Below are positions 1-21,850 of a stretch of 32,860 bases of DNA, in pieces. The translations under genes were made by a program, and so were the position numbers. Position 1 is the first letter of the stretch. Each line of letters opens with the position of its first letter. This DNA comes from Halococcus saccharolyticus DSM 5350 (GTDB taxonomy: Archaea > Halobacteriota > Halobacteria > Halobacteriales > Halococcaceae), in assembly GCF_000336915.1 (NCBI RefSeq), contig NZ_AOMD01000011.1:4081-36940 (forward strand), read 5' to 3'. The notes under the pieces were generated by a model. It searched no databases. It saw only the letters and a program-made list of their open reading frames with translations, and was not told where the DNA came from.

Positions 1-31
1 CAGCCCGCTCAGAGATGTGTATAAGAGACAG
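1..31. other. Tn5/Nextera adapter remnant, left end
   Basis: Positions 13-31 are exactly the 19-bp Tn5 mosaic end AGATGTGTATAAGAGACAG. Positions 7-12 (GCTCAG) resemble the end of a tagmentation adapter arm with one base changed. This is library sequence, not organism sequence. An apparent start codon at 17 (reading MYKRQ) lies inside it and should not be used as a gene start. Confidence 0.97.
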
Positions 32-331
32 ATCTTCTCCAGCGGCGTCTCCCTCATCGCCAACGAGGCGGAGCTCACCCAACGAAATCTGACCATCCTG
101 GCGGCCTCCATCGCGCTCGGACTGGCGGTCGAGTTCCGTCCGGAGGCGATTGCCGCCCTCCCCACCCTCGTCCAGTCCGTCGTGGGCTCCGGCATCACCA
201 TGGGGGGACTCAGCGCGCTCATCCTCAACGTTGTGCTCCCCGAAAGTGGCCGTGGCGTACCAGAAACCGAAGGCGGCACCGACACCAACGTACAGATCTC
301 CGGGGAGGGTCCCGCCACGGACGAGGATTGA
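32..331 (+). CDS. NCS2 nucleobase permease, C-terminal fragment (5' truncated by contig end)
   Basis: About 99 residues of the C-terminal end of a uracil/xanthine-type permease (NCS2 family), an inner-membrane importer of nucleobases. The segment aligns by eye over its whole length with the C-terminus of the complete permease at 2794-4167. Shared landmarks are IF[ST]SG near the start, LTQRN, the GLxVxFRPE stretch, the GSGxxMGGL[SA]AL helix and a final L-P before an acidic tail. Two membrane helices remain. The rest of the gene lies outside the contig, so the start is not visible. It is on the opposite strand to the other permease and clearly diverged from it, so it is a paralogue rather than a recent copy. 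Substrate unknown; the urate locus nearby makes a purine likely, but that is inference. Confidence 0.85.
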   Translation: MFSSGVSLIANEAELTQRNLTILAASIALGLAVEFRPEAIAALPTLVQSVVGSGITMGGLSALILNVVLPESGRGVPETEGGTDTNVQISGEGPATDED

Positions 332-2262: not shown

Positions 2263-2724
2263 TCAGCTGTCAGTGATCGCATCGAGGACCTCAGCGGCAT
2301 GACCATCCGGGGAGACGTCCTCAAACGCAGCCTCGATTTCGCCACTCGGATCGACGAGGTAGGTGTTGCGGGACGCGGTCGTGTTCGTCGTTCCATCGTC
2401 GTCGCTCGTCTCGTAGCTTTCGTAGGCCGCTGCGACCTCCCCGTCGATATCGCTCAACAGCGGGAACGGGATGTCGTTCGTCTGTTTGAATTCGTGGATG
2501 TCCTCTACCGAGTCCGTCGAGATACCGAACACCTGCACGTCCTGATCCTCAAACGCCTGCCACGAGTCCCTGAAGCTCCTGGCTTCGATCCGGCAGCCCT
2601 CTGTCCCGGCTTTGGGGTAGAAGTACACGACGCGGTGCTGTCCCGCGAAGTCCGACAGCTTCACTGGCTCGCCGTTCTCGTCGGAGAGTTCGAAACTGGG
2701 GGCTTGTGTGCCTGGCTCCAACAT
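2263..2724 (-). CDS. bcp: Bcp/PrxQ-type peroxiredoxin with a single cysteine
   Basis: Thiol peroxidase of the AhpC/TSA (Bcp/PrxQ) family, 153 aa, cytosolic, reducing H2O2 and organic peroxides. The thioredoxin-fold start (PSFELSDENG) and the active-site strand VVYFYPKAGTEGC are clear, with the peroxidatic cysteine at residue 44. In most Bcp proteins a resolving cysteine follows five residues later; here that position is Arg49 and the protein has no other cysteine, so it must be resolved by an external thiol or partner protein. A TATA-like TTTTATG (minus strand, 2747-2753) lies about 26 nt before the ATG, which fits a leaderless transcript. It sits 69 bp beyond the end of the permease gene on the same strand and close to urate oxidase, an H2O2 producer. 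Confidence 0.9.
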   Translation of the reverse strand: MLEPGTQAPSFELSDENGEPVKLSDFAGQHRVVYFYPKAGTEGCRIEARSFRDSWQAFEDQDVQVFGISTDSVEDIHEFKQTNDIPFPLLSDIDGEVAAAYESYETSDDDGTTNTTASRNTYLVDPSGEIEAAFEDVSPDGHAAEVLDAITDS

Positions 2725-2793
2725 ATCTTGTCAGTGTATCATCTGGCATAAAATCGTTTCGCTCGCGCGACTCGCTCGAAATGGCGAAATCGC

Positions 2794-4167
2794 TCAGTCG
2801 TCGCCAGTTTCCTTCGCGACGGCCTCGCTGTCGGAGACGTTACCGACGGGGCTCTCCTGTGGGAGCATGAGATTGAGGACGAGCGCAGCGAGTCCGCCCA
2901 TGACGACGCCCGAGCCGAACAGCGTCTGCACCATCTCGGGGAGGTTCTGCACCAGTTCGGGCCGGAAGGTGACGCCCAGCCCGAGTGAGACTGCGGCGGC
3001 GATGATGGTCGTGTTGCGCTGGGTGAGGACGACCTCGCGGTGGATGATGTTGAGACCGCTGGTGAAGATCTGCGCGAAGAGGATGAGCGTGCCGCCACCG
3101 AGGACGGGATCGGGAACCGTCGTGATCACCGCACCGACCTTCGGGATGAACCCACCGACGAGGAGGATGACACCGCCGATCCCGACGATGAACCGACTGG
3201 CGACGCCGGTGAAGCTGATCAGCCCGACGTTCTGCGCGAAGGCCGTGTTCGGGAACGCCCCGAAGATGGCCGCGATACCGCTCATGACCCCGTCGCCGAG
3301 TAGCCCGCCGCGGATCTGGCGGTTCGATGCGTTCCGTCCTGTCTCGGCGACGATCGCCGAGACGTTGCCGATGGTCTCCATGGCAACGATGAGGTAGACG
3401 GCCGCGACGGCGAGGATCGCGCCCGGATCGAACACGATGCCGAACTTCAGCGGGACGGGCACGGCGAACCAGCCCGCCTGTGCGATCGGCGAGAAATCGA
3501 CGATTCCGAGAAACACCGCGACGACGTAGCCGAGGAAGATCCCGAAGAACACGCTCGCGATCCGAAGGATACCCCGGAAGAACTGGTTCAACGCGAGCGT
3601 TACGAGGAAGACGAGTGAGGCCACGCCGAGATTCATCAACGAGGCGTAGCCTGCCGCGCCCGGTCCGGCCGACGCGCCGGCCGCGTAGTCGATACCCGTC
3701 GGGATCAGCGTCAGCCCGATGAGCATCACGACGGTGCCGTTGACCACCGGTGGAAAGAGCGGCTTGAACCGCTCGTAGTTCGCCCCGATGAATATCTGGA
3801 GGACCGATCCGACGAGCGCAGCCCCGAATATTGCTGGCAGCCCCCCATCTTGGCCGACGAGAAGCAACGTACCGAGGAACGCGAAACTCGTCCCCATCAT
3901 GATCGGCAGCCGAGCGCCGACGGGACCGACGGGATAGGCCTGCACCAGGCTCGCGACACCCGCTACGACGAGCGCCATCTGGACGAGGAACGTCGTCTGC
4001 CCGGTTGCGAGTCCGATCGTGGATGCGATGATCAGCGGAACGGCGATGTTCCCGAGCACCATCGCAAGCACGTGCTGGAAGGCAAGCGGGATCGCTTCCC
4101 CGAGCGGTGGCTTCTCCTCGATGTCATACACGACGCTCGACCGCCCACTCTCGTCTGTCTGTGCCAT
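2794..4167 (-). CDS. NCS2 xanthine/uracil/urate permease
   Basis: Complete 457-aa membrane transporter of the nucleobase:cation symporter-2 family, with some 12-14 hydrophobic segments. The family signature is seen as QNVGLISFTG at residues 312-321. The residues matching essential sites in the E. coli xanthine permease XanQ are present: a His in TM1 (QHVLAMV, His32), Glu264 (AMETIG), and Gln312/Asn313 of the signature. The signature ends in Thr-Gly, closer to xanthine/urate than to uracil carriers, and the next genes degrade urate, so urate or xanthine is the likely substrate (inference). The start is ATG 4167, with a weak AGGTG 6 nt upstream and a TATA-like GTTAAGTG at about 4199-4206. Two inverted repeats lie just upstream (4224-4261). 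A diverged paralogue is truncated at the left contig end. Confidence 0.93.
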   Translation of the reverse strand: MAQTDESGRSSVVYDIEEKPPLGEAIPLAFQHVLAMVLGNIAVPLIIASTIGLATGQTTFLVQMALVVAGVASLVQAYPVGPVGARLPIMMGTSFAFLGTLLLVGQDGGLPAIFGAALVGSVLQIFIGANYERFKPLFPPVVNGTVVMLIGLTLIPTGIDYAAGASAGPGAAGYASLMNLGVASLVFLVTLALNQFFRGILRIASVFFGIFLGYVVAVFLGIVDFSPIAQAGWFAVPVPLKFGIVFDPGAILAVAAVYLIVAMETIGNVSAIVAETGRNASNRQIRGGLLGDGVMSGIAAIFGAFPNTAFAQNVGLISFTGVASRFIVGIGGVILLVGGFIPKVGAVITTVPDPVLGGGTLILFAQIFTSGLNIIHREVVLTQRNTTIIAAAVSLGLGVTFRPELVQNLPEMVQTLFGSGVVMGGLAALVLNLMLPQESPVGNVSDSEAVAKETGDD

Positions 4168-4223
4168 GTGACACCTGGACTTGGGTCCACCGTACAGTCA
4201 CTTAACGATGCTGGTTTCAACAG

Positions 4224-4261
4224 TCACCGATCGACACGGTGATTGGTATCGATTCGATACC
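4224..4261. promoter_or_regulatory. Two adjacent inverted repeats upstream of the permease gene
   Basis: TCACCG-7-CGGTGA (4224-4242) is followed two bases later by the 17-bp palindrome GGTATCGA-T-TCGATACC (4245-4261). They lie 57-94 bp upstream of the permease start, outside the TATA/BRE region, a position that in archaea suits an activator. The regulator is unknown. Confidence 0.4.
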
Positions 4262-4491
4262 GACGGACGTTCCGTACCGTCTCCTTACGGTTCAGGCCCG
4301 GACGTTGTGCAGAAACGATTGGCCGTTCCGTTGTCAAATCCTGGCACGTAGACGAGCCCAATTTTGTCGCGTTGGTCGTTTCGTGCTCTTGCTCCGAACG
4401 ATCGCAGACGGGCTCCTATGCCGCCGTGGTCGACCTCCCGCGGACAAAACACGGCAGTTCTAACGAACGTGCCGTGTCCAGGCGTACCCGA

Positions 4492-4842
4492 TCAACTTCC
4501 TCGATACGTGGTGTAGCTGCCGGGTGACAGTAGCAAGGGGACGTGATAGTGCTCGCTGGCGTCGTCGATAACGAACCGCACCGGCACCGTCTCCAGGAAT
4601 GTCGACTCAGACGAGCGCTGCCGATAGTACTCACCAACCTCGAACAGGAGCTGGTACGTTCCGGCTTCCATCTCCTCGGGAGTCAGCAGTGGCTCATTGA
4701 GGCGGCCGTCGTCGTTGGTTGTCCCGTCGGCGATCGTCTCGGCGTTGCCGTCGGCATCCAGCCGCTGGAGCGTCACCGTGACGCCTTCGGCGGGTCCCTC
4801 TTGGCTCGTGTCGAGCACGTGCGTCGTGAGCTCTGCGGCCAT
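4492..4842 (-). CDS. uraH: 5-hydroxyisourate hydrolase (transthyretin-related)
   Basis: 116-aa HIU hydrolase, second step of urate breakdown (5-hydroxyisourate to OHCU), soluble, normally a homotetramer. All family hallmarks are visible: LTTHVLDT with catalytic His8, the DDGR segment with Arg47, HYHVPLLLSP with His98, and the C-terminal tetrapeptide YRGS. Length matches bacterial HIUases (about 110-120 aa). The ATG is 4 bp downstream of the urate oxidase stop codon, and GAGGAG overlaps that stop codon as a ribosome binding site, so the two genes are translationally linked in one operon. Downstream, 324 bp separate it from the permease start with no gene seen. Confidence 0.96.
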   Translation of the reverse strand: MAAELTTHVLDTSQEGPAEGVTVTLQRLDADGNAETIADGTTNDDGRLNEPLLTPEEMEAGTYQLLFEVGEYYRQRSSESTFLETVPVRFVIDDASEHYHVPLLLSPGSYTTYRGS

Positions 4843-4846
4843 CGGT

Positions 4847-5827
4847 TTACTCCTCGTCGAGGTCGTCGCGGTTCATCGAGAACTGCTGGTAGCCCGTCGG
4901 GCGGGCGGGCTCGCGCAGCACTCTGACGTCCTCGTCGCCGTCGATCTCTTCGCGGACCGCGATCCAGGTCTGATTGTTGGCCTCGAAATTGACCGATTCG
5001 AGCTGCGGGAACCGTTCGAGCACGCGCAGACCGATCTGGTAGATGAGGTCCTGAATGGATCGCGAGTAGACTTCATCGAACATGACGTGGGCGATGTCGC
5101 GCACCTGTTCGGACGCGACGTAACGCTGTGGCTCCTCGCCGAGGCAGTCCTCCGGATCCTCGTAGTTCCAGAAGATGTCCATCGAGACGTACAGCGTGCG
5201 ATCCTCGCGCTCGGGCAGGGTCGTGTGCTCGTCCTGAACGTAGTCGGTGAACGCACTGCCCTTCACCTTGACCAGCTGCAGGTCGGTGATACCGCTGTTC
5301 TGTTCTTCGATCTGCGGGCCATCGTCGCCGCGGGTAAGGTAGACCTCACCGAAACCGGACTCGTTGTCCGAAACGCGGAAGACGAGTTCGCTCGGCTCGA
5401 AGTCACCGTCGCCGGTGGGCACGTCGAGCTCGTCGAACGGGATCTGGTCGGCCGACATCTGGATGGCGTCGATCTGGGAGTACTGCTCCAAGAACCGACG
5501 CCCCGTGAAGTCGAGGAACCCCTCGACCGTCGCGCCGTCGTACTCGCCCAGCTGGTACTGAACGAAGTTCTTCATCGAGTCCGTCGCGACCAGATTGCTG
5601 TTGTCCGCCTCCTCGAAGTTCTTGAAGAACTCGTCGCCTTCGAGCCGAACGCGAACGTCCAGGCCGAGCAGCGTGTTATCCCGACCGTCGAACGAGGATT
5701 CCGGAATCGTCCGGACGTTCTCGAGCGGCGACGCGTAGGTTCGGTAGATACCGATCTTTTCCTTACCGTAGTTCATCAGCCGCTCACCCTCCTCTGGTTC
5801 GGGCGAACGGTGTTTATTGGTCGTCAT
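4847..5827 (-). CDS. uox: Urate oxidase (uricase)
   Basis: Cofactor-free uricase, first step of urate degradation: urate + O2 to 5-hydroxyisourate + H2O2. Recognised by YGKEKIGIYRTYA at the N-terminus, the DNSNLVATDSMKNFV segment (DNS.VVATD..KN in the family, carrying the catalytic Thr), and the second-half motif SAFTDYVQDEHTTLPE. Tunnelling-fold duplication gives about 310-325 aa, as here. Start choice is uncertain. ATG 5827 (326 aa) has a TATAAAAG box at 5863-5870 that places transcription about 12 nt upstream. ATG 5776 (309 aa) has a GGAGGGTGA ribosome site 7-11 nt upstream and begins right at the conserved domain. An in-frame ATG at 5920 lies upstream of the TATA box and is unlikely. The gene overlaps no neighbour and leads the uox-uraH pair. 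Confidence 0.93.
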   Translation of the reverse strand: MTTNKHRSPEPEEGERLMNYGKEKIGIYRTYASPLENVRTIPESSFDGRDNTLLGLDVRVRLEGDEFFKNFEEADNSNLVATDSMKNFVQYQLGEYDGATVEGFLDFTGRRFLEQYSQIDAIQMSADQIPFDELDVPTGDGDFEPSELVFRVSDNESGFGEVYLTRGDDGPQIEEQNSGITDLQLVKVKGSAFTDYVQDEHTTLPEREDRTLYVSMDIFWNYEDPEDCLGEEPQRYVASEQVRDIAHVMFDEVYSRSIQDLIYQIGLRVLERFPQLESVNFEANNQTWIAVREEIDGDEDVRVLREPARPTGYQQFSMNRDDLDEE

Positions 5828-5862
5828 ACCCAACTGTGTGGTTGTCCCACCCACTACAAAAG

Positions 5863-5870
5863 CTTTTATA
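5863..5870 (-). promoter_or_regulatory. TATA box for the uricase-HIUase operon
   Basis: The minus strand reads GAGTATAAAAGC. The box centre is about 39 nt upstream of ATG 5827, predicting a start of transcription near 5840 and a very short leader. Confidence 0.6.
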
Positions 5871-6097
5871 CTCGGTTCATCATGAGGATTTAGGCGTTTC
5901 GACGGTCCGAGTACACACAACCCGACCGGTTCAACGACTGAAACCGTCTCTCGTACCTCGATCGACGTCCGTTATCCGAGTATGAGATTTCAAGAACACG
6001 AATGGGACAGTGCACCGGGAAACGGCGCGAGTATCTCCCTCCCGTTCGCAGATTCGATCGGAATCCCCGTCAAGAAGCGTCGAGACGTCTGTGTGTC

Positions 6098-6601
6098 TCA
6101 AGCGCGCAGCATATCGTCGAGTCGGAGTCGAGCGATCTCATGGACTTCGTTGAGAGCGGTGTGGAACTCCTCGGGTTTCGAGTGACCGACCCGTTCTTCC
6201 ATCGCTTCTCTGATCGCGTTCGGTGATTCGTCCCGCACCGCCATGATGAACGGGAACCCGAACTTCTCCCGATACTCCTCGTTCAACCGTTGGAACGCCT
6301 CGTACTGGTTCGGGCTCAGCTGATCGAGCCCGGCGGAGGCTTGCTCCTCTTCCGACGCTTCGGTCATCTCGGTCTGTTCACCGAGATCGGGGTGTTCCCG
6401 CAGTAGTGCCGTCTTTTCGTCCCGCGACGCGTTCCGGACGGCGCTTTCCATCGCTCCGTGCAGGTCCTCGACCGAAGCGAACGGCCGTTCCGACTGGGCT
6501 TGCTCGGCAACCCACGGCGACGACTCGTACACGTCACCCAGAATTTCTACGAAGGTCCCGTCATCGGTCTGGTTTAACTCTTCGATCGTGAGTTCGCTCA
6601 T
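6098..6601 (-). CDS. uraD: 2-oxo-4-hydroxy-4-carboxy-5-ureidoimidazoline (OHCU) decarboxylase
   Basis: 167-aa all-helical UraD protein, third step of the urate pathway, giving S-allantoin from OHCU. The catalytic motif REHPDLG is present with the essential His70, and the second family motif NEEYREKFGFPFI lies near residue 108. The N-terminal LNQTDDGTFVEILGDVYESS matches the usual L[ND]..[DS]...F...L...YE.SPW start of the family, including the Ser-Pro-Trp that follows. A 20-residue Glu/Ala-rich insertion after the His motif is somewhat acidic, as expected for a halophile. ATG 6601 is preceded by TTTAAG at 6629-6634, about 30 nt upstream, so the transcript is probably leaderless. The gene is separate from uox-uraH (270 bp away) but on the same strand, and divergent from the hydantoinase. 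Confidence 0.95.
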   Translation of the reverse strand: MSELTIEELNQTDDGTFVEILGDVYESSPWVAEQAQSERPFASVEDLHGAMESAVRNASRDEKTALLREHPDLGEQTEMTEASEEEQASAGLDQLSPNQYEAFQRLNEEYREKFGFPFIMAVRDESPNAIREAMEERVGHSKPEEFHTALNEVHEIARLRLDDMLRA

Positions 6602-6628
6602 CGCTTTTCGGTAGTGCGTCTATGCGTC

Positions 6629-6634
6629 ACTTAA
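6629..6634 (-). promoter_or_regulatory. TATA box for uraD
   Basis: The minus strand reads CGATTTAAGTGA, 28-33 nt before the ATG at 6601. It predicts a leaderless transcript. Confidence 0.5.
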
Positions 6635-6726
6635 ATCGTTCTCTTCGGTTGCGGGTTGTTCACTTGCTACCGATATGAAGATCGACTCTTCTCGACACGC
6701 TCGAAAAAGATGACGGAGATTGCTGG

Positions 6727-6741
6727 AAATATTCAATATTT
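6727..6741. promoter_or_regulatory. Perfect AT-rich palindrome between uraD and the hydantoinase gene
   Basis: AAATATT-C-AATATTT is a perfect 15-bp inverted repeat in the middle of the 233-bp divergent promoter region. It stands about 125 bp from the uraD start and 93 bp from the hydantoinase start. It could be an operator shared by both genes; no regulator is identified. Confidence 0.4.
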
Positions 6742-6803
6742 GACAAATTCCCTTTGAGAACGTGGATATAAGTGAAGCTGACGCCCAGCGTTAGCTCCCA
6801 ACC

Positions 6804-6809
6804 ATTATA
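6804..6809 (+). promoter_or_regulatory. TATA box for the hydantoinase/allantoinase gene
   Basis: ATTATA is centred about 28 nt before the ATG at 6835, with no ribosome binding site, consistent with a leaderless transcript. Confidence 0.55.
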
Positions 6810-6834
6810 CGTTGCTGAGTAGAATTGGCGATCG

Positions 6835-8211
6835 ATGTCCGTGGACACAGTCATCTCGAACGGAACCATCGTGACGGGCGAGAGCACGTTCGGCGGTTCC
6901 ATCGCGATCGACGATGGGACGATCGTCGGTATCGGTTCCGAGCACACGTTACCAAAGGCGTCCCGGACGATCGATGCGTCCGATCGTCTCGTGCTGCCGG
7001 GCGTCGTCGACCCGCACGTGCATATCGACGATCACGTTTCGCTCGATACGTACGAAACCGCTACCAGTGCCGCCGCACTCGGCGGGGTGACGACAGTCAT
7101 CGATTTCGGCTGGCAAGCATACGTCGGCGAGGAGAGTGCGTGGGACGAGGAGGGCTCACTACAGGAGGGTGTCGAGCGCAAGCGCGAAACGGCCGAGAAC
7201 CCGATGGTCGATTTCAGTCTGCACGGCGGGATTCTCCGCGAGGGATCGGACCTCTTCGACGAAATGGCTGATCTCGTCGATGCCGGCATCACCTCCTTCA
7301 AGATATACAGTACCTACGAGTTCGGTCTCTCGAACGGGTACATCCGGAAGGTATTCGAGAAGCTCCGAGACCTGGACGCCGTCGCGGTCGCCCACACCGA
7401 AGACGATAGCGTCTGTCGCTCTCTGACAGCTGAGTTCCGGGATGCGGGACACGATGATCCACAGCGGCTGCCCGAAGCACGACCGGACTACGCAGAGGCG
7501 ATGGCTGCCGACGATGTCGCCCGACTCGCTCGGGAAATCGGTACGAAGTACTATGGTTTCCACACCTCCTCTCGAAAAGCGGCGGATGCACTCGCACGAT
7601 ACCAGCGCGATGGAAGCTGTATCCGTGGCGAGGCGTGCGTCCACCACACGACCCTCACGGACGAGATACATCGGGAGTTGGGGAACCTCGCAAAACTCAC
7701 ACCCCCACTCCGGACTGCTGACGACAACGATGCGCTGTTCGAACACCTGCGCGAAGGGGCCCTGAGCGTCGTCTCGACCGACCACGTCGCACAGACACGC
7801 GACCGCAAAGAAAACACTGAGTGGTGGGAGAACCCGTTCGGAGCGAACGGTTTGCAGCGGAGTCTGTCAGTGTTCCACGACGAGGCGGTAAACGAACGTG
7901 GCTTTTCGTATCCATTCCTGGTTCGGACGATGTGTACCAATCCGGCACGAACCTTCGGACTCTCGGAAAAAGGAACACTCGAACCCGGGACCGACGCCGA
8001 TATCGTGGTCTTCGATCCCAACGACACCCACACGATCTCGGCGACGGACAACGCCTCGGTTGCCGACTACTCGATCTACGAGGGTCGTGAAGTAACCGGT
8101 CGTGTCGAAACGACATTAGTCCGTGGCGAGATCGTCGCCGACGACGGAGAGATCGTTGAGTCCGGTCACGGGACCTTCGTCCCGCGTGAGCGGCCGGATT
8201 GGAGCATCTGA
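6835..8211 (+). CDS. Allantoinase / dihydropyrimidinase-family cyclic amidohydrolase
   Basis: 458-aa binuclear-metal amidohydrolase that opens a cyclic ureide ring. All metal ligands of the family can be placed: HxH in DPHVHID (His61, His63), the lysine to be carbamylated in SFKIYSTYE (Lys156), His187 (VAHTED), His243 (FHTSS) and Asp316 (STDHV). The C-terminal GTFVPRERP is typical of hydantoinases/dihydropyrimidinases. By sequence alone it could open hydantoin, dihydropyrimidine or allantoin. Its place beside uricase, HIUase and OHCU decarboxylase makes allantoin hydrolysis to allantoate the best reading, the fourth step of the pathway. No allantoate amidohydrolase is present in this window. 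The transcript is probably leaderless (ATTATA box at 6804). Confidence 0.88.
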   Translation: MSVDTVISNGTIVTGESTFGGSIAIDDGTIVGIGSEHTLPKASRTIDASDRLVLPGVVDPHVHIDDHVSLDTYETATSAAALGGVTTVIDFGWQAYVGEESAWDEEGSLQEGVERKRETAENPMVDFSLHGGILREGSDLFDEMADLVDAGITSFKIYSTYEFGLSNGYIRKVFEKLRDLDAVAVAHTEDDSVCRSLTAEFRDAGHDDPQRLPEARPDYAEAMAADDVARLAREIGTKYYGFHTSSRKAADALARYQRDGSCIRGEACVHHTTLTDEIHRELGNLAKLTPPLRTADDNDALFEHLREGALSVVSTDHVAQTRDRKENTEWWENPFGANGLQRSLSVFHDEAVNERGFSYPFLVRTMCTNPARTFGLSEKGTLEPGTDADIVVFDPNDTHTISATDNASVADYSIYEGREVTGRVETTLVRGEIVADDGEIVESGHGTFVPRERPDWSI

Positions 8212-10308: not shown

Positions 10309-11082
10309 CTATGAATACGTAACGTTCAGCTCGATCACGTTCACAGCTTCGAGCACTCGGCTCGGTAGCTCGTCAGTGAAACGCTCGTCTTGGATTCGGT
10401 TCGAGGGTCCGGAGACACTTATCGCACCGAGCACTCGATTCTTGTTGCTGAGAATCGGCGCTGCAACACACCGGAGACCGGTGATTCGTTCCCCGTCGTC
10501 GAATGCAACTCCTCGTTCGCGTATCTCAGCGAGTTCCTTGTCGAGGGTTTCTCGATCTGTGATGGTGTTCGAGGTCGAACCGACGAGACCGTGTCTCTCG
10601 ATGATTTCCTCAACTCGCTCCTCCGAAAGATGAGCGAGAATCGCTTTTCCGAGCCCAGTTCCGTGAAGGGGTACCCGTGTTCCGACGTGAGCTTCGACTT
10701 GAACCGCCTTCTTGCCGCGAGCTCGGTGGAGGTATGCCCCCCGTCCGTGTTCTTCGATCATCAAGTTCGCGAGTTCACCTGTGGTCGCTGCTAGGTCATC
10801 AACCTCCGGTTTGGCGATTCCGTAGATCTCCAACTGTGATCTGGCGTACGCGCCGTATTCGAGTGGCCTAATACCGACGTAATAGGTCGATCCGTCTTTC
10901 ACGACGTACTCTTCCTGAACGAGCGTGCTCAGATAGTTGTGAACCGTGCTCTTCGGAATATCGAGATAGGTGGCGAGTTCCGAGACCCCGGCACCGTCGA
11001 GTTCCTTGAGCGCATCCAGGATATTGAACCCGGTTTCGACCGACTTCACCGCGTGCTTTGCTCGCTTGGTCATAGTGATCAT
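10309..11082 (-). CDS. IclR-family transcriptional regulator
   Basis: 257 aa with an N-terminal winged helix-turn-helix (about residues 15-75; LATYLDIPKSTVHNYLSTL is the recognition part) and a C-terminal IclR effector domain. The latter shows VPLHGTGLGKAILAHL and the late segment GLRCVAAPILSNKNRVLGAISVSGP, both typical. IclR proteins usually sense small organic acids and control nearby catabolic genes. It lies 100 bp downstream of the FAH-family gene on the same strand, so it may be co-transcribed and control the sugar-acid locus (inference). An alternative start three codons later (ATG 11073) fits the weak TATA-like sequence at 11095-11106 better. Effector unknown. Confidence 0.93.
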   Translation of the reverse strand: MITMTKRAKHAVKSVETGFNILDALKELDGAGVSELATYLDIPKSTVHNYLSTLVQEEYVVKDGSTYYVGIRPLEYGAYARSQLEIYGIAKPEVDDLAATTGELANLMIEEHGRGAYLHRARGKKAVQVEAHVGTRVPLHGTGLGKAILAHLSEERVEEIIERHGLVGSTSNTITDRETLDKELAEIRERGVAFDDGERITGLRCVAAPILSNKNRVLGAISVSGPSNRIQDERFTDELPSRVLEAVNVIELNVTYS

Positions 11083-11182
11083 GACGCACCCATCTATCTT
11101 GAAAGGTTCGCTTGGTTGCGCCGATTGAGTTCCAAATGACTGAACACTCCAATCCTCTCTTCGTTACATACTCGTGACTCTC

Positions 11183-12049
11183 TCAGACCCGACGAACGGT
11201 GTTGGTGAGCGTTCCGATGTTTTCGATGGTGATCTCGATCTCATCCTCAGGATGGAGGGTGAACTCCTCGTCCGGAACGAGTGCCGTCCCCGTAAGCAGA
11301 ACGGCTGTTTCCGGGACAGGGTTGCTTTTCGTGAGAGCCGATGCGAGTTCGTCACAGGTCTTCACCATCTCAGAGGTGGCGGTCGTTCCTTCGAAGACCG
11401 GTTCGCCTCCTCGGGAGATGGTCATCTCGATTGCCAGGTCGTGAGGATCACCGACCGTATCCGGGGTAACGACGCACGGACCGATCGCGCAACAACGGTC
11501 GTACACTTTGGCCTGGGGAAGATAGAGCGGATTCCGGCCTTCGATCGATCGACTGCTCACGTCGTTACCGACTGTGTATCCCACGATGGAACCGTCGTAG
11601 AGGACGACGGCGAGCTCCGGTTCCGGAACGTCCCACTCAGAGTCGCTCCGTATGCCGACGTCCTTTTCGGGCCCCACCGTGCGCGACGGGGTCGCCTTGA
11701 GAAATATTTCCGGACGATCGTTGCCGTAGACCTGACTGTAGACGTCCGGGTTCCCACTTTCGGCTTGGCGCGCCTTCTCACTGATGTGGTAGGTCACGCC
11801 CGCTGCCCAGACCTCTTCGGCCACGACCGGCATCCGGTGGTGGCTCGTCGACTCGGAACTAACGGGCGGTGCGTTGGCGATCACGGCATCCACGATATCG
11901 TTGATGTCTCGGTCCACTACTGCTGCGGTTCGAGCGAGATCCATGAAGCCGGTTATCTCGGGACGGGCAGCTGTCAGGTCGTATTCGGCTCCGTCCGTTC
12001 GAACTACCAGGCGCGAATCACAGCCATCCGCTACTCTGTAGTATCGCAT
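11183..12049 (-). CDS. FAH-family protein, probable 2-keto-3-deoxy sugar-acid dehydratase (copy 1)
   Basis: 288 aa of the fumarylacetoacetate hydrolase superfamily. The C-terminal catalytic domain carries the metal-site motif VPEPELAVV (Glu143, Glu145), GYTVGNDVSSRSIEG (Asp163) and LPQAKVYDRCCAIGP (Lys181). Members of this family in haloarchaea include the 2-keto-3-deoxypentonate dehydratase of the oxidative xylose/arabinose pathway and diketo-acid hydrolases. The divergent aldehyde dehydrogenase next door fits the first role (dehydratase giving 2-oxoglutarate semialdehyde), by inference. A second copy of the same length is at 31663-32529, also divergent from an aldehyde dehydrogenase. A TATAATT-like box at 12077-12083 lies about 30 nt before the ATG, so it is leaderless. 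Exact substrate is not determinable here. Confidence 0.88.
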   Translation of the reverse strand: MRYYRVADGCDSRLVVRTDGAEYDLTAARPEITGFMDLARTAAVVDRDINDIVDAVIANAPPVSSESTSHHRMPVVAEEVWAAGVTYHISEKARQAESGNPDVYSQVYGNDRPEIFLKATPSRTVGPEKDVGIRSDSEWDVPEPELAVVLYDGSIVGYTVGNDVSSRSIEGRNPLYLPQAKVYDRCCAIGPCVVTPDTVGDPHDLAIEMTISRGGEPVFEGTTATSEMVKTCDELASALTKSNPVPETAVLLTGTALVPDEEFTLHPEDEIEITIENIGTLTNTVRRV

Positions 12050-12265
12050 ACGTCCTGGCTAACTCATCGGAGGACGTATAATTGTATCGCAAACCGTGAT
12101 GGATCGGCAACGTATCCCGACGAACGTGGCACCGTCGGGTTGCTACTTCCGATATCAGTACTCAATATCCCGACTATAGGCTCTGATTCGTTGGTGGACT
12201 GTTTCAGCCGCCGACGAGGACACGACGGAAGATCATAAGTAGGAGGGTGTCTACTACCTGGACGC
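12050..12265. promoter_or_regulatory. Divergent promoter region between FAH and aldehyde dehydrogenase genes
   Basis: The minus-strand TATA (ACAATTATACG) at about 12075-12085 serves the FAH gene and the plus-strand CATAAGTA at 12234-12241 serves the dehydrogenase. Each lies about 28-31 nt from its ATG. CCCGAC-12-GTCGGG (12117-12140) is an inverted repeat between them that could bind a regulator. Confidence 0.5.
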
Positions 12266-13717
12266 ATGTCGACCGAGTACGACAATTTCGTGGGCGGAGA
12301 GTGGCTTCCGTCCGACGACGGCGAGACGTTCACGGTACGCAACCCGGCGGCCACCGACGAGATCGTGAGCCGCTACCAGCGCTCGACGGAGGAGGATGTC
12401 GACGCGGCCGTGGCCGCGGCGGCAGCCGCCCAGCCCGACTGGGCCGCCATGCCGGGTCCCGAACGCGGCGCGATCCTCCGCCGAACCGGCGAGTTGCTCG
12501 CCGAGCGCAAGCAATCGCTCGTCACCACCCTCACCACCGAGGAAGGGAAGACCACCGCCGAGGCCACCCCCGAGGTCCAGCGCGCGATCGACATCTTCCA
12601 CTACTACGCCGAGAAGGCCCGCGACTTCGACGGCACGGTGAAGGCCGCCAGCGGCCGAGACAAGACCCTCCACACCCGCAAGGAGCCCATGGGTGTCGCC
12701 GCGCTCGTCACACCGTGGAACTACCCGATCGCCATCCCCGCCTGGAAGCTCGCGCCCGCTCTCGCCACCGGCAACGCCGTCGTCATCAAGCCCGCCTCCG
12801 AGGCCCCCAGCCTCGTCCGCGCGATCGTCGACTGTCTCGACGAGGCGGGCCTCCCCGCCGGCGTCGTCAACTTCCTCACCGGCTCGGGCAGCGAGATCGG
12901 CGGACCGCTCGTCTCCCACGACGACGTTGATGTGGTCTCCTTTACGGGGAGCACCCGGGTCGGCACTACCGTCTACGAGCAAAGCGTCGCCGACGGCAAA
13001 CGTGCCCAGTGCGAAATGGGCGGGAAAAACCCCGCCGTGGTGCTTCCCAGCGCCGACATCGACGAGGCGGTCGAGGTGGTCGGCGCGGGCGCGTTCGGCG
13101 TCACCGGCCAGGCCTGTACCGCGACCTCGCGCGCGATCGTCCACGAAGAGGTCTACGAGGAGTTCGTCGCGGGGATCGTCGACCACGCCCAGGAGATCAC
13201 GGTCGGTGACGGCCTCGACGGGGCGGACATGGGTCCACAGGTCAGCGAGAGCGAACTCGACGGCACGCTCCAGTACATCAACATTGCTCAAGACGAGGGT
13301 GCACGTCTCGCGGCCGGTGGCTCCCGCCTCGACGAGGGCGATCACGCCGACGGCCACTACGTCGAACCGACCGTCTTCGCCGACGTCGAGACCGGCATGC
13401 GGATCGCCCAGGAGGAGGTGTTCGGGCCGGTGCTCGCGGTCATCCCCGTAAGTGACTTCGATGAGGCCGTCAGCGTGGCCAACGACAGCGAGTACGGCCT
13501 CTCGGCGAGCGTCCTCACCGACAGTCTCAGCGAGGCCGAACGCTTCTCCAGGCAGATCGAAACCGGCGTGGTGAAAGTCAACGAGAAGACTACCGGCCTG
13601 GAGCTGCATGTCCCGTTCGGCGGGGTCAAACAGTCCTCGACCAACACCTACCGCGAACAGGGTGATGCCGGCCTCGAGTTCTTCACTACCACCAAAACCA
13701 TCTATACCAACTTCTGA
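12266..13717 (+). CDS. NAD(P)-dependent aldehyde dehydrogenase (2-oxoglutarate semialdehyde dehydrogenase-like)
   Basis: 483-aa cytosolic aldehyde dehydrogenase. Visible motifs are TPWNYPIAIPAWK with the oxyanion Asn152, the NAD-binding KPASEAPS and FTGSTRVG, the general base Glu250 in CEMGGKNP, the nucleophile Cys284 in TGQACTATSRA, and EEVFGPVLAV. Length is normal for the family. Pairing with a FAH-type dehydratase suggests oxidation of 2-oxoglutarate semialdehyde to 2-oxoglutarate, the last step of a Weimberg-like pathway; succinate semialdehyde is an alternative. High GC with very strong G/C third positions compared with the UxuA-like gene downstream. It is followed by a terminator-like hairpin at 13750. 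A paralogous N-terminus is at 32643. Confidence 0.93.
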   Translation: MSTEYDNFVGGEWLPSDDGETFTVRNPAATDEIVSRYQRSTEEDVDAAVAAAAAAQPDWAAMPGPERGAILRRTGELLAERKQSLVTTLTTEEGKTTAEATPEVQRAIDIFHYYAEKARDFDGTVKAASGRDKTLHTRKEPMGVAALVTPWNYPIAIPAWKLAPALATGNAVVIKPASEAPSLVRAIVDCLDEAGLPAGVVNFLTGSGSEIGGPLVSHDDVDVVSFTGSTRVGTTVYEQSVADGKRAQCEMGGKNPAVVLPSADIDEAVEVVGAGAFGVTGQACTATSRAIVHEEVYEEFVAGIVDHAQEITVGDGLDGADMGPQVSESELDGTLQYINIAQDEGARLAAGGSRLDEGDHADGHYVEPTVFADVETGMRIAQEEVFGPVLAVIPVSDFDEAVSVANDSEYGLSASVLTDSLSEAERFSRQIETGVVKVNEKTTGLELHVPFGGVKQSSTNTYREQGDAGLEFFTTTKTIYTNF

Positions 13718-13749
13718 AAACGGTTGTCTGAGGGGATCGATAGCGGGAG

Positions 13750-13769
13750 CACCGACATCTCGGTGTTTT
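13750..13769 (+). terminator. Hairpin plus T-run after the aldehyde dehydrogenase gene
   Basis: CACCGA-CATC-TCGGTG is followed directly by TTTT, 33 bp after the stop codon. This is a plausible transcription end separating the dehydrogenase from the next gene. Confidence 0.5.
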
Positions 13770-13874
13770 CCGTGGACGCTCTGCCGATCTCGGTGACAAC
13801 GATCGGTTTCTGTGAACAAGGTTGTCGTCGAACCGAGGGCAAAGACTAAGCTGGTGGTGCTGCATCGATACTGC

Positions 13875-14831
13875 ATGCGCCCGTCATTAGTTCTCCCACC
13901 GAATCGTGACGAACGCTGGGATCTTGCGAAACAGATCGGCGTCGAGACCGCTGTGGTCCACACGCTCGAAATCGGAGATAGGTCGCGCCCTTGGCGCTAC
14001 ACCGAACTCCTTGACCTCGTCCAGAACTTTCGGGAGTACGGGATCGAGGTCGGGGCGATTGAGGGATGCGTCCCCATTTCCGACACTACCCGCCTCGGTC
14101 GCGAAGGCAGAGACGAAGAAATCGAGCGATTCAAACAGTATCTCCGGAACCTCGGCGAGCTGAATGTACCCGTCGTCGCCTATGACTGGATGGCAGGGAC
14201 GCGCTGGGCACGTACTTCCACTGCGGTTCTCTCTCGGGGCGATTCGTTGACCACGGCCTACGACGACCAGTTGATGACGAGTGCACCCCCACAGGAGCTC
14301 GCCCCTGTTGCCGCCGAAGAGCTCTGGGAGGGTCTGAAGCACTTCCTGAACGAAGTTGTTCCGATCGCAGAGGAGGCTGGTGTGAAGCTGGCGCTCCATC
14401 CCGACGACCCACCTATTGATCGTCTCCGAGGTGTCGATCGGATCGTGACGTCACCCGACAACTACGGACGAATCATGGAGATATACGAGAGCGAATACAA
14501 CGGCATTACGTTCTGTCAGGGAAACTTCGCCGCGATGGGTGCCGACATCCCCGCGGCGATCAAACGGTTCGACGACCGGATCAATTTCGTTCACTTCCGG
14601 GACGTCCACGGAACAGCCGACCGGTTCGTGGAGACCTGGCACGACGACGGACCGACGGACATGCACGCCTGTATCGAGGCGTATCGTGAGATCGGGTTTG
14701 AGGGACCGGTTCGGCCGGACCACGTACCGACAATGGCCGGAGAGACGAACAGCAATCCGATGTACATGACGCTCGGGCGCCTCTTCGCTATCGGGTATCT
14801 GAAAGGATTGCTTGAATCGACGGACGGGTAG
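13875..14831 (+). CDS. UxuA-like (mannonate dehydratase family) sugar-acid dehydratase
   Basis: 318-aa TIM-barrel protein of the mannonate dehydratase family. Metal-site motifs in order are LALHPDDPP (His175), FCQGNF (Cys214), NFVHFRDVHG (His240) and RPDHVPTMAGE (Asp282/His283); then GRLFAIGYLKGL, the usual C-terminus. Known members dehydrate D-mannonate to 2-keto-3-deoxygluconate. The N-terminal 80 residues depart from classic UxuA and the protein is shorter than bacterial UxuA (about 350-395 aa), so it may be a subfamily with another sugar-acid substrate. I prefer ATG 13875 over ATG 13812, because the family starts near RPSLVLPPN and the upstream 21 residues look unrelated. It is followed by 131 bp and then the PPC-domain gene. 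Confidence 0.82.
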   Translation: MRPSLVLPPNRDERWDLAKQIGVETAVVHTLEIGDRSRPWRYTELLDLVQNFREYGIEVGAIEGCVPISDTTRLGREGRDEEIERFKQYLRNLGELNVPVVAYDWMAGTRWARTSTAVLSRGDSLTTAYDDQLMTSAPPQELAPVAAEELWEGLKHFLNEVVPIAEEAGVKLALHPDDPPIDRLRGVDRIVTSPDNYGRIMEIYESEYNGITFCQGNFAAMGADIPAAIKRFDDRINFVHFRDVHGTADRFVETWHDDGPTDMHACIEAYREIGFEGPVRPDHVPTMAGETNSNPMYMTLGRLFAIGYLKGLLESTDG

Positions 14832-14911
14832 CCGGACGCCAGGCTCCTTCCTACCGGAAACTCCGAGGGCCGATCCATCTATTATTTCACCGCCTATCGG
14901 CTTTCATCGAC

Positions 14912-14951
14912 ACACAAGATATAAGTGAGGTCCCGTAAACGTGTCTTGTGT
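14912..14951. promoter_or_regulatory. Promoter with flanking inverted repeat before the PPC gene
   Basis: A TATA-like GATATAAG at 14919-14926 lies just inside the left arm of the inverted repeat ACACAAG (14912-14918) / CTTGTGT (14945-14951). The ATG is at 14963, giving a predicted leader of roughly 14 nt. The repeat brackets the core promoter and so could be an operator. Confidence 0.45.
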
Positions 14952-14962
14952 AGGCAGACAAC

Positions 14963-15397
14963 ATGGAAACATTCGAAACCAACGACGATCACGTGATTGT
15001 GAGACTCGATTCCGGGGACATGGCGCTTGAATCGATCACCGAAGCCTGCGAGGAGCACGATATCGACACCGGTGCTATCGTCTCCGGCATCGGAACATTC
15101 AGAAATCTGAATATCCATTACGTACCGACGGCAGAGTTCCCCGACGAAAAGTCCGAACGAAACACCTTCCTCAATCTGGAGGGTGCGTGGGAGGTCGGCA
15201 CTATCGACGGCGCGATCGCCGATGGGGACCCTCACCTCCACGTCATTGCGTACAACGGTGACGAAACGGTGGCCGGTCATCTTGAGGATGGATGCGAGGT
15301 CCACATTCTTAGTGAACTGACCATCCGGAAGTTCGACGGGCCGGAGATGACCCGTCGACCCAATGAGAAGAACGTCGGTACGTTGCAGTTGAAGTAA
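14963..15397 (+). CDS. Stand-alone PPC/DUF296-domain protein
   Basis: 144 aa formed almost entirely by one PPC (plants and prokaryotes conserved, DUF296) domain. Recognised by VIVRLDSGDMALESI at the start, AIVSGIGTFRN, PHLHVIA (His91, His93), and AGHLEDGCEVHILSELTI (His106). In plants the domain is fused to AT-hooks and forms trimers; in prokaryotes it stands alone and its role is not established. The three histidines can be expected to bind a metal. No DNA-binding segment is added here. It is followed 29 bp later by the SDR gene on the same strand, so it is probably the first gene of a two-gene operon inside the sugar-acid locus. A metabolic or sensing role is inference. Confidence 0.85.
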   Translation: METFETNDDHVIVRLDSGDMALESITEACEEHDIDTGAIVSGIGTFRNLNIHYVPTAEFPDEKSERNTFLNLEGAWEVGTIDGAIADGDPHLHVIAYNGDETVAGHLEDGCEVHILSELTIRKFDGPEMTRRPNEKNVGTLQLK

Positions 15398-15426
15398 GGC
15401 GGTATCAGTCGAAGGATCCGTAATTT

Positions 15427-16191
15427 ATGACCGAATTTCCGGAAATCACAGTAGCAGGGAAAACGGCAGTTGTCGTCGGTGGGACGAGCGGCATCGGTGA
15501 GGGAATCGCGTTGGCGTTCGCCGACGATGGGGCCGACGTGGTCGCGACCAGCCGAACCGAAGCCGCCGTGGCCGACACCGCCGAGAAGATCAGAGGATAC
15601 GGCGTAGAGACCCTCGAACAGACGTGCGACGTCACCGACTATTCCTCGATCGAAGCACTGCGTGACAGCGTTCTTGAGACGTTCGGACAGGTCGACATCC
15701 TGGTCAATTCGGTTGGGACCGCCGCTCGGACGGAGTTTCTCGATCTGAGCGAGGAAGGATGGCTCGACGTGATCGACGTACTGCTCAACGGTGTGTTCCG
15801 TTCGTGTCAAGCGTTCGCTCGGGAGATGGACGAAGGGAGCATCATCAACATCTCGTCGATGTCGGCCGATCTGGCGCGGAGTCGTCTGATGCCGTACTGT
15901 GCCGCCAAAGCCGGCGTGAACAGTCTGACCCAGTGTGCAGCGAAGGAGCTGGCACCTGACGTGCGGGTGAACGCGATCGCTCCCGGATTCGTAATGACTC
16001 CGTTGACCAAGGAGGAGTACGCTGAGGGAACTGAGATACGAAAGCAAGTCGACGACCGAACACCGGTCGGACGGGTTGCCGACCGCGAGGAGATTGTAGG
16101 TTCCGCGATCTATCTCGGCAGCGAGGCCGCGAGTTTCACCACCGGCGAGGTAGTGTACGTTGACGGCGGCTTCACGAAAAACGCGTTGTGA
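15427..16191 (+). CDS. Short-chain dehydrogenase/reductase (SDR), sugar-acid oxidoreductase candidate
   Basis: 254-aa classical SDR. The cofactor loop is GGTSGIGEG (residues 18-26) and the NNAG-equivalent is NSVG (94-97). The catalytic set Asn121, Ser144, Tyr157 and Lys161 (PYCAAK) is complete, and the C-terminal VYVDGGF is standard. The residue after beta-2 is Ser-Arg (ATSRTE), which tends to favour NADP(H), though this is not decisive. Beside a mannonate dehydratase homologue it may interconvert a keto-sugar acid and an aldonate (as UxuB does for fructuronate) or oxidise a 2-keto-3-deoxy acid; both are inference. It ends exactly one base before the stop codon of the convergent Ldh2-family gene, with no spacer. 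Confidence 0.9.
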   Translation: MTEFPEITVAGKTAVVVGGTSGIGEGIALAFADDGADVVATSRTEAAVADTAEKIRGYGVETLEQTCDVTDYSSIEALRDSVLETFGQVDILVNSVGTAARTEFLDLSEEGWLDVIDVLLNGVFRSCQAFAREMDEGSIINISSMSADLARSRLMPYCAAKAGVNSLTQCAAKELAPDVRVNAIAPGFVMTPLTKEEYAEGTEIRKQVDDRTPVGRVADREEIVGSAIYLGSEAASFTTGEVVYVDGGFTKNAL

Positions 16192-17256
16192 TCAGTCGCG
16201 TGGGGAGGGCGATTCCACGACGTACTCCTCCGCGATCGTTTCCAGTTTCCGGAAGACGTTCGGATCGACCGGTACGCCTGTTTCGAGGTTCTCTTCCATA
16301 GCGCGTGCTTCGATCTCGCCAGGAAGCAGCACTTCAGGAACCCCCTCGTCGGAGGGCATGTTTTTGATGTCTTCGATCAGCCGATCGACATCAGCGATGA
16401 ACTCACCGACGGTCCGAAGCGTGGCGACATCAATGGAGAGATAAAAGTGACCGACTCCCATCGATGTCTCGAACTCGTCGTAAAGTGAACTAACCTCGAC
16501 GCTGTGGTTTGCGCCGGAGAGGAGCCCAGCAAGGAGTTCGACGACGACACCGAGGCCGTATCCTTTGGCCCCGCCGAGCGGCCGTAGTGCATTGATTTTC
16601 TCGGGATCGGTCGTTGGCTCTCCTTGGTCATCCACTCCCCAGTTTTCCGGAACCTGTTCTCCCTTCTCCGCCGCGACGTGATCGATCTTCCCCATCGCGA
16701 CGACACTAGTGGCCATGTCGAGTGTGATCGGGAACTCTTGAGAAGACGGCACCGACACCGCGATGGGGTTCGTGCCGAGGTACGGCTCCCGCCCTCCGAA
16801 CGGGATCACCTCCGCGGGAACGTTCGTCATCGCCATCCCGATACAGTCCTCGTCGGCTGCCATTTCCGTGTAGTACGCTGCCGTGCCGAAGTGGTTGCTG
16901 TTCCGTACCACCCCGACTGCTACCCCAGTTCGCTTCGACATGGAGATCAACCGCTCCATCGTTCGCTTTCCCGCACTTTGACCGGGACCGTTGTCGGCAT
17001 CGACGACCAGCGCACCTTCTGACCGTTCGTCGATGTCGATTTCCGGATCGCTGTTGAACCCGCCTGCATCCAAGTGAGCGACATACGGTTCAAGCCGCGC
17101 AACGCCGTGGGAACTGACACCCCGCAAGTCGGCCCTGACGAGTGCTTCTGCAACGATGTCATGGTGTGGCGCTGTAAGGCCGGCGTTGCGGAGGATCGCT
17201 GCTGCGAACGATTCTAACGATTCCGGGTCGAAACGAAGCGTCTCTGTCTGCGACAT
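16192..17256 (-). CDS. Ldh2/malate-type dehydrogenase (AllD/YiaK/ComC superfamily)
   Basis: 354-aa NAD(P)-dependent 2-hydroxy-acid dehydrogenase of the Ldh2 family, a fold distinct from ordinary lactate dehydrogenases. Motifs are DLRGVSSHGVARLEPY near residue 45, GVVRNSNHFGTAAYYTE, the cofactor region LGTNPIAVSVPS with LDMATSVVA, and GGAKGYGLGVVVELLAGLLSG. Family members include malate, ureidoglycolate (AllD), 2,3-diketo-L-gulonate (YiaK) and sulfolactate dehydrogenases. AllD would connect with the allantoin pathway 8 kb away, but the immediate setting (sugar-acid enzymes, ABC importer) favours a sugar-derived keto acid. A GAGGTGAG ribosome site lies 5 nt before the ATG and an AT-rich TTTTTTAAG box at about 17283-17291. 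It is convergent and abutting with the SDR gene. Confidence 0.9.
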   Translation of the reverse strand: MSQTETLRFDPESLESFAAAILRNAGLTAPHHDIVAEALVRADLRGVSSHGVARLEPYVAHLDAGGFNSDPEIDIDERSEGALVVDADNGPGQSAGKRTMERLISMSKRTGVAVGVVRNSNHFGTAAYYTEMAADEDCIGMAMTNVPAEVIPFGGREPYLGTNPIAVSVPSSQEFPITLDMATSVVAMGKIDHVAAEKGEQVPENWGVDDQGEPTTDPEKINALRPLGGAKGYGLGVVVELLAGLLSGANHSVEVSSLYDEFETSMGVGHFYLSIDVATLRTVGEFIADVDRLIEDIKNMPSDEGVPEVLLPGEIEARAMEENLETGVPVDPNVFRKLETIAEEYVVESPSPRD

Positions 17257-17598
17257 CGGTACTCACCTCTTTACAGAAGTGCTCTTAAAAAAGTGTTTTG
17301 TAGCCCTTCCAACGTTTACCTTGGCACGGCGTTGACGGTATCTCTGCCTGCTAATCCATAGAACATGGAGCAAGGGTAGGTGACAATTGTTTGTGTCATG
17401 AAAATGATTAATACTTCGAAGAACCGTCCTCACGATGAGGGGTACTTATCTCGACATCGCGTCGCATCCGTGAATGGATTCGAGCCAATAATCGGTACTC
17501 CAACCATTCCTCTTGCACGCTGCATCGAACAGTGATCGGTGTAGAGCATCAGTAGGGACAGATATATATAATAGAAGCATGCATTGGTAATCGAAGTC
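17257..17598. promoter_or_regulatory. Divergent promoter region between Ldh2 gene and ABC importer
   Basis: About 340 bp without a gene. On the plus strand ATATATATAAT (17562-17572) lies about 32 nt before the ATG at 17599. On the minus strand TTTTTTAAG (17283-17291) serves the Ldh2 gene. TGACA-8-TGTCA (17381-17398) and CCTCA-CGA-TGAGG (17427-17439) are inverted repeats in the middle and are candidate operators for a common regulator, possibly the IclR protein. Confidence 0.5.
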
Positions 17599-19176: not shown

Positions 19177-19200
19177 GATACTTCTCAAACTCAAACGAAA

Positions 19201-20987: not shown

Positions 20988-21012
20988 CAGTAGTTCTTTT
21001 CTGCCACTACTG
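20988..21012 (+). terminator. Possible hairpin at the end of the permease operon
   Basis: CAGTAG (20988-20993) pairs with CTACTG (21007-21012) across a 13-nt loop that contains TTCTTTT. It begins right after the TAA stop. The stem is short, so this is a weak candidate terminator. Confidence 0.3.
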
Positions 21013-21822: not shown

Positions 21823-21850
21823 TGCTCTCTCCTACGACTTTCCAAGGACC

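Follow-up and report, generated by a model that had tools for sequence, protein, structure and literature searches.

Urate genes and their conservation in Halobacteria

The DNA analysed here is a stretch of 32,860 nucleotides from the genome of Halococcus saccharolyticus DSM 5350 (3.45 Mb in 36 contigs), extending from position 4081 to 36940 of contig C11 (G000:C11:4081-36940, where G designates a genome, C a contig and L, below, a locus read). We refer to the whole stretch as the window; a window position is the C11 position minus 4080. Protein families in the window were assigned by comparing NCBIfam and Pfam profile scores with the curated cut-offs. A purine permease, three enzymes of urate breakdown and an allantoinase-like amidohydrolase, described as clustered in an original prediction on this DNA, are all present between positions 2794 and 8211. 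Together with the genes to their left on C11, they form a putative island of purine and ureide catabolism.

Three consecutive genes on the reverse strand correspond to OHCU decarboxylase (UraD, the equivalent of the PucL N-terminal part; 6098-6601), uricase (cofactor-independent urate oxidase; 4847-5920) and 5-hydroxyisourate hydrolase (HIUase, PucM/UraH; 4492-4842). All exceed the cut-offs of their families (TIGR03164, 191 bits against 96; TIGR03383, 232 against 168; TIGR02962, 136 against 87), and a gap of only 4 bases separates the uricase stop from the HIUase start. The uricase open reading frame as listed begins at a TTG, the true start being likely near 5824. The protein is 93% identical to the uricase of Halococcus morrhuae and 92% to that of H. 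thailandensis. Its relatives of solved structure include 4r8x (303 bits) and 5yja (299 bits); among the solved uricases it is closest to the Bacillus/Arthrobacter type, as we take these genera to be. The YGK and TDSMKN stretches of the uricase line up with the solved relatives, and the C-terminal YRGS of the HIUase with 4q14; we take these stretches to be catalytic. A solved relative of the OHCU decarboxylase is 2o8i. The residue comparison covered these stretches and six metal ligands of the amidohydrolase, and to that extent the catalytic residues are intact, as had been proposed. By family assignment the trio is a puc/ura set, with a predicted activity leading from urate to (S)-allantoin.

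The same strand carries an NCS2 purine permease of the urate/xanthine type (2794-4167; pbuX TIGR03173, 432 bits against a cut-off of 414) and a Bcp/PrxQ-type peroxiredoxin (2263-2724). The latter, included in the originally described interval without being named, scores 119 bits with NF006960 (cut-off 140) and 124 with the Pfam AhpC-TSA family (cut-off 26). It could clear the hydrogen peroxide produced by uricase; its linkage is weak, a peroxiredoxin of at least 60 bits occurring in only 3 of 36 uricase neighbourhoods. Short inverted repeats are present in two intergenic stretches.

Those 36 neighbourhoods come from a survey sample of 391 Halobacteria genomes in 86 genera, in which uricase was found in 36 genomes belonging to 15 genera. 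Their gene content was counted by tblastn because the gene caller missed genes in some loci (uricase was called in 30 of the 36), and part of the neighbourhoods are truncated at contig ends. HIUase and OHCU decarboxylase lie near uricase in all 36, so that the clustering is not due to chance. HIUase is invariably 0.6-0.7 kb downstream of uricase. In 35 genomes OHCU decarboxylase precedes uricase on the same strand at 0.8-1.1 kb, and in the exception it is 4.3 kb off; the order and strand of the three genes are common to the same number, 35 of 36. Other recurrent neighbours are an NCS2 permease (at least 200 bits, 29 neighbourhoods), a DUF3830 protein (28), an M20 peptidase-family enzyme (27), an IclR regulator (21) and a large subunit of xanthine dehydrogenase (XDH; 15, three of them at merely 28-29% identity). 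Malate synthase occurs in four.

Ureide genes within and beyond the window

Divergent from the uricase operon, an allantoinase-like cyclic amidohydrolase occupies positions 6835-8211 of the forward strand. In a comparison with 25 families it exceeds none of the equivalog cut-offs. Its ligands for a carboxy-lysine binuclear metal centre (H, H, K, H, H, D) are identical to those of Escherichia coli AllB at six of six positions, given the AllB numbering that we presume. These ligands do not separate allantoinases from hydantoinases, since hydantoinases carry them too, and from the sequence of the amidohydrolase alone the two activities cannot be told apart.

The predicted allantoinase step rests on genomic linkage to uricase. 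An allantoinase-like gene is found in 32 of the 36 uricase neighbourhoods. At the level of whole genomes (E-value at most 1e-100) it is present in 36/36 uricase genomes and in 44/355 others (Fisher 7e-29, this and the Fisher value below ignoring kinship). A best copy with 64% or more identity to the amidohydrolase of the window occurs in 25 genomes, 24 of which carry uricase. In a tree of 56 relatives, the 32 uricase-linked copies fall in three groups (24, 10 and 3 rows). These groups also contain five unlinked rows, four from genomes with uricase elsewhere (G360, G182, G208 and G302) and one (G339) from a genome lacking it. Rows with stops or shorter than 350 residues were dropped, and the tree consists mostly of uricase loci; 44 genomes without uricase have an allantoinase-like match, and 12 of these are included. 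The tree grouping is therefore subject to a sampling bias of which the 24/25 figure is free. Both favour allantoin as the substrate.

C11 continues for 4,080 bases to the left of the window. There, 1.8 kb beyond the edge, lies an M20 enzyme of the allantoate amidohydrolase type (C11:1009-2277, reverse strand). It exceeds the cut-offs of the NF006771 "allantoate amidohydrolase" subfamily (409 bits against 399) and of TIGR01879 (356 against 204), and stays below that of AllC (TIGR03176, 232 of 598 bits). It is the sole TIGR01879 match above cut-off in the genome, the one other match reaching 27 bits, and is a good candidate for the step that would break allantoate. An additional M20 enzyme acting as ureidoglycolate amidohydrolase is unsupported in this genome by the same two matches. 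The original prediction traced the pathway as far as allantoate and noted that genes for allantoate breakdown are missing from the window. None is indeed present in the window, but their absence was an effect of its edge, and the search of the genome that had been suggested retrieves the M20 gene. The proposed urate-to-allantoate route itself is well supported, by protein families, by residues and by gene linkage that extends over 15 genera, its allantoinase step by linkage, and the genes continue past allantoate.

Further genes left of the window are a DUF3830 protein (C11:2482-2901, reverse strand; PF12903, 124 bits against 26), an FAH-family gene, and the C-terminal 25 residues of a malate synthase at the very start of the contig (C11:1-75, forward strand; 72% identity over 25 residues, 23 bits). 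A second NCS2 permease on the forward strand starts 957 bases before the window, at C11:3123, and has its 3' end at window positions 1 to 331; it is broken at 1-31 by a Tn5/Nextera adapter preceded by N, marking an assembly gap. The adapter stands beside N at both window ends (13-31 and 32836-32854) and occurs again near the end of contig C5 (L056, position 10279). Other Halococcus have an NCS1 permease.

The XDH genes for which a search had also been suggested were found in part. The genome contains four molybdenum hydroxylase large subunits, two of them in tandem CoxS-CoxL pairs on contig C30, for both of which XdhA is the best model. Near these pairs are two genes of similar sequence, one of which belongs to the same cluster as the NCS2-type permease of locus L034; this one was scanned, and neither has an NCBIfam name. 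A molybdenum hydroxylase on contig C21 scores best with carbon monoxide dehydrogenase and glyceraldehyde dehydrogenase models, below cut-off; the remaining one is on contig C5. In three loci of the survey (L057 5270-7722, L040 3-1303, and L041), a pair made of an ATPase/SMC-like gene and a small-protein gene, labelled by reading, adjoins the XDH small and large subunits.

Glyoxylate and urea as predicted products, and the DUF3830 family

The malate synthase of this genome is split by contig ends. The copy in the corresponding locus of another Halococcus (G156) scores 823 bits with the haloarchaeal AceB model NF041315 (cut-off 780), a score that applies to this copy only. Malate synthase lies in the uricase neighbourhood of the four other uricase-bearing Halococcus. 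In one other genus, about 245 bases separate the end of its match from DUF3830 (G182), or 5.5 kb separate it from the allantoinase-like gene (G360). Contig C36 of H. saccharolyticus (5,474 bases) holds pyruvate kinase, a tartronate semialdehyde reductase-type protein and, at the contig end, a malate synthase N-terminus. The reductase gene is likewise beside malate synthase in G182, and 6 kb away in G208. The three reductases are 41-43% identical (the C36 copy 42%) to GlxR, a member of the E. coli allantoin regulon.

A further malate synthase copy, on C21, follows an isocitrate/methylisocitrate lyase-family gene (192 of 354 bits for methylisocitrate lyase). The end of C21 overlaps the starts of both C11 and C1 by 89 identical bases, which leaves the contig preceding C11 unproven. 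C36-C11 is the likelier join, since one contig of G208 holds pyruvate kinase, reductase, peroxiredoxin, M20, NCS1 (in two pieces), allantoinase-like gene, DUF3830 and the start of malate synthase (uricase being on another contig). Near-identical malate synthase copies seem to have broken the assembly at the ends of C21 and C36 and at the starts of C1 and C11 (L065, L064, L066, L003); G156 likewise has two copies, 97% identical. With malate synthase and a GlxR-like reductase near the ureide genes, glyoxylate is the likely carbon product, and would be consumed through the former and perhaps the latter. A thiamine pyrophosphate enzyme on C30, the best match to glyoxylate carboligase (29%), was rejected for that role, being above the acetolactate synthase cut-off (615 bits against 509).

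A gap is left at the ureidoglycine/ureidoglycolate step. Ureidoglycolate lyase (AllA, PF04115), proposed for a genome search in the original prediction, is in none of the 36 uricase genomes, the E. coli control being positive. AllE (TIGR03214) exceeds its cut-off in none of them, with weak matches of up to 28 bits in 15 (19 bits in this genome) and one control above cut-off; allantoicase (PF03561) has no match in the 36 genomes, nor in any control. An Ldh_2 protein at window positions 16192-17256 reaches 273 and 270 bits with two ureidoglycolate dehydrogenase (AllD) models, under their cut-offs of 356 and 496. It was not adopted as AllD, since it scores level with sulfolactate dehydrogenase (272 of 500 bits) and stands in a sugar-acid cluster. 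Ureidoglycine decomposes spontaneously, and an enzyme may therefore be unnecessary here.

A candidate enzyme for this gap is DUF3830. It is found in 36/36 uricase genomes and in 36/355 others (Fisher 4e-31). In the uricase genomes it lies within 4 kb of the M20 or allantoinase-like gene in 35 of 37 loci (G380 contributes two), against only 16 of 35 loci in genomes without uricase; G361, with no tblastn match, is omitted from the count. Others place it beside SDR, asparaginase-like or ABC genes or a HyuB/caprolactamase-beta-like gene (SDR, asparaginase and HyuB-type examples were scanned, the rest assigned by reading). Twenty-five bacterial plasmid records contain a DUF3830 match. Among seven examined, five have hydantoinase-, allantoinase- or racemase-type genes (allB, hydA, amidohydrolase, racemase) within a few genes, one has allE and a Zn-hydrolase gene nearby, and one, from Thalassospira, has none of these. 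The family consists of small proteins with one distant solved relative, 3kop (E-value 0.0002). In an alignment of 77 sequences picked for their similarity (rows under 100 bits or with stops excluded), the core motifs HVRWSG, ENHT and LAGNH are at least 94% conserved per position. No paper in the PubMed Central (PMC) library searched names DUF3830. Divergent members (28 and 32% identical) directly follow a HyuB/caprolactamase-beta-like gene at L106 5999-6460 and L111 5947-6408, the neighbour having been scanned in L111 only.

A urate-specific role is weakened by the 36 uricase-lacking genomes with DUF3830, where it is often away from M20 and allantoinase-like genes. That the protein is a cyclic-ureide enzyme of haloarchaea and bacteria, filling the ureidoglycine/ureidoglycolate step or acting on the substrate or product of M20, and so completing a route from urate to glyoxylate with an undescribed family, is a doubtful possibility. 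Because DUF3830 also occurs without ureide partners, some broader function in the use of amides or ureides is no less likely.

Urease alpha has no match in this genome or in G252. In the other Halococcus it reaches 23.2 bits in G156 (Pfam cut-off 23, just 37 positions) and 21-22 bits in G208 and G235. Allophanate hydrolase is above cut-off in none of the five uricase-bearing Halococcus, its best score being 191 bits against 511, in a search that did not extend to urea carboxylase. Since these five thus have no convincing urease or allophanate hydrolase, we predict that they release urea as waste. Urease alpha of at least 56 bits is found in 21 of the 36 uricase genomes, two of these matches being partial at contig ends. 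On contig C4 of G302 (L076 8034-13295), 17-19 kb from the uricase of the same contig, urease genes adjoin an ABC transporter and an additional allantoinase-like gene; apart from urease alpha and the allantoinase-like gene, these were labelled by reading.

Interpretation of the locus

We read the locus as a haloarchaeal purine-ureide catabolic island whose enzymes would degrade urate beyond allantoate, probably as far as glyoxylate, and put the probability of this reading at roughly 0.8. The NCS2 permease would import urate or xanthine, and the pair of molybdenum hydroxylases on C30 may produce urate by oxidising hypoxanthine/xanthine. Uricase, HIUase and OHCU decarboxylase would convert urate to (S)-allantoin, the divergent amidohydrolase would convert allantoin to allantoate, and the M20 enzyme would split allantoate into ureidoglycine, ammonia and CO2. 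Ureidoglycine would give glyoxylate, ammonia and urea, spontaneously or through an unrecognised enzyme, possibly DUF3830. Glyoxylate would enter central metabolism via the malate synthase of the locus and perhaps also the tartronate semialdehyde reductase. The cell would thus retain about two of the four nitrogens of urate and release urea. Gene identities, residues, linkage and presence or absence are supported by sequence; regulation is presumed.

Several observations weigh against this interpretation. The amidohydrolase scores better as a D-hydantoinase (299 of 393 bits) than as AllB (TIGR03178, 268 of 358), both below cut-off. The closest solved relative of the M20 enzyme is an N-carbamoyl-L-amino acid hydrolase (238 bits), followed by a plant ureidoglycolate hydrolase (215), with the E. 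coli allantoate amidohydrolase lower (161). The XdhA matches on C30, at 664 and 634 bits, fall short of the cut-off of 780, and the gene caller found no flavin adenine dinucleotide (FAD) subunit in the 20 kb read there. At the glyoxylate end, the malate synthase link in this genome consists of 25 residues at a contig end, with either C36 or C21 leading ambiguously into C11 or C1, and the C1 genes have no match beside the second malate synthase copy in relatives. Malate synthase is absent from 32 of the 36 uricase neighbourhoods, matches over 640 bits (the full-length type) lying elsewhere in many of these genomes. TIGR01505 is the best model for all three reductases, which score just under its cut-off of 341 bits (C36, 321; G182, 323; G208, 335). 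No glyoxylate carboligase (Gcl) or glycerate kinase (GlxK) was recognised among the proteins compared.

The hydantoinase and N-carbamoylase scores, at least as good as those for the ureide enzymes, would also suit a locus that ends at allantoin. The amidohydrolase and M20 would then form an adjoining hydantoin/dihydropyrimidine route, with allantoin or allantoate excreted, and the same enzyme families with DUF3830 do occur without uricase in other haloarchaea and bacteria. Such a separate route would hardly explain why every uricase genome has an allantoinase-like gene, why the close copies of this gene are almost confined to uricase genomes, or why the only M20 enzyme above cut-off in the genome belongs to a family present in 27 of the 36 uricase neighbourhoods; we regard it as unlikely. 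Another possibility is that the genes deal with overflow from purine salvage or detoxify urate rather than serving nutrition. The peroxiredoxin adjoining the urate genes and the patchy distribution of uricase would agree with this, whereas permeases, XDH subunits, deaminase-like genes and, in some genomes, glyoxylate-handling genes cluster with uricase as expected in a catabolic island, making this explanation less probable still. The adapter sequences at the window ends, with the malate synthase copies collapsed at contig ends, raise the question of whether unrelated genes were joined by assembly artefact or contamination. Both adapter junctions lie outside 2263-8211, none of the 35 other uricase neighbourhoods contains the adapter, and four of the 35 genomes sharing the order and strand of the urate trio are other Halococcus, so that such an origin has a negligible probability.

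Beyond the purine genes, window positions 10309-23008 contain a sugar-acid cluster comprising an IclR regulator, an FAH-family protein, a haloarchaeal 2,5-dioxovalerate dehydrogenase (837 bits against 750), a mannonate-dehydratase-type protein (214 against 191), an SDR, the Ldh_2 protein and an ABC transporter. A role of the IclR gene (10309-11082) in urate regulation is possible: IclR recurs in uricase neighbourhoods, yet this gene borders the sugar-acid genes. Two paralogous FAH-family genes stand about 20 kb apart (11183-12049 and 31663-32529), each near an aldehyde dehydrogenase-type gene.

The cluster itself is already known. A puc cluster from urate to allantoin was named in four haloarchaea in 2013 (PMC3623002), and in 2021 the Haloferax volcanii genes HVO_B0299-B0310 were proposed for purine degradation through allantoinase, amidohydrolase and xanthine dehydrogenase, the complete pathway being called "highly speculative" (PMC8305020). 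Archaeal urate use is thus better described than the original prediction supposed, although no experimental test of it, biochemical or by growth, was found in the literature searched, subscription journals being mostly outside the search. The H. volcanii cluster has the same enzymes (pucM, pucL1, pucL2, pucH1, amaB4, coxSLM, uraA4); here, in contrast, the XDH-like genes lie on a different contig, and the locus includes the end of a malate synthase. A different hydantoinase/amidase gene set of H. volcanii appears in an expression table (PMC6801745), and uricase has been reported from halophilic bacteria and Streptomyces (PMC11891729). The passages of PMC8305020 and PMC3623002 on the haloarchaeal clusters do not mention DUF3830 or glyoxylate use. 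What we add is the M20 enzyme outside the window, a connection to glyoxylate, urea as a predicted waste product, and DUF3830 as a lead.

The permease, HIUase and OHCU decarboxylase functions are common to the puc system of Bacillus subtilis, in which PucL is bifunctional (PMC8305020), whereas uricase and OHCU decarboxylase are separate genes here. By its annotation, the allantoin regulon of E. coli K-12 comprises allA, gcl, hyi, glxR, allW, allB, glxK, allE, allC and allD. The haloarchaeal genes resemble it in ureide opening, in an M20 enzyme, in the NCS1 permease of other Halococcus and in having a tartronate semialdehyde reductase close to ureide genes. They differ in that no AllA, no AllE above cut-off and, among the proteins compared, no Gcl or GlxK was found, and in the addition of malate synthase. 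The E. coli stretch is without an annotated uricase, unlike the Halococcus locus.

In the prior papers, as far as their relevant passages go, archaeal purine catabolism stands as an annotation hypothesis. The locus described here, with its relatives, would turn the end product and the nitrogen yield into concrete predictions: glyoxylate passing into malate synthase, and a yield from each urate of two ammonia and urea in these Halococcus, or of up to four ammonia where urease alpha reaches 56 bits or more (21 of 36 uricase genomes). It also singles out DUF3830, present in all 36 uricase genomes of the 391, as a gene of interest.

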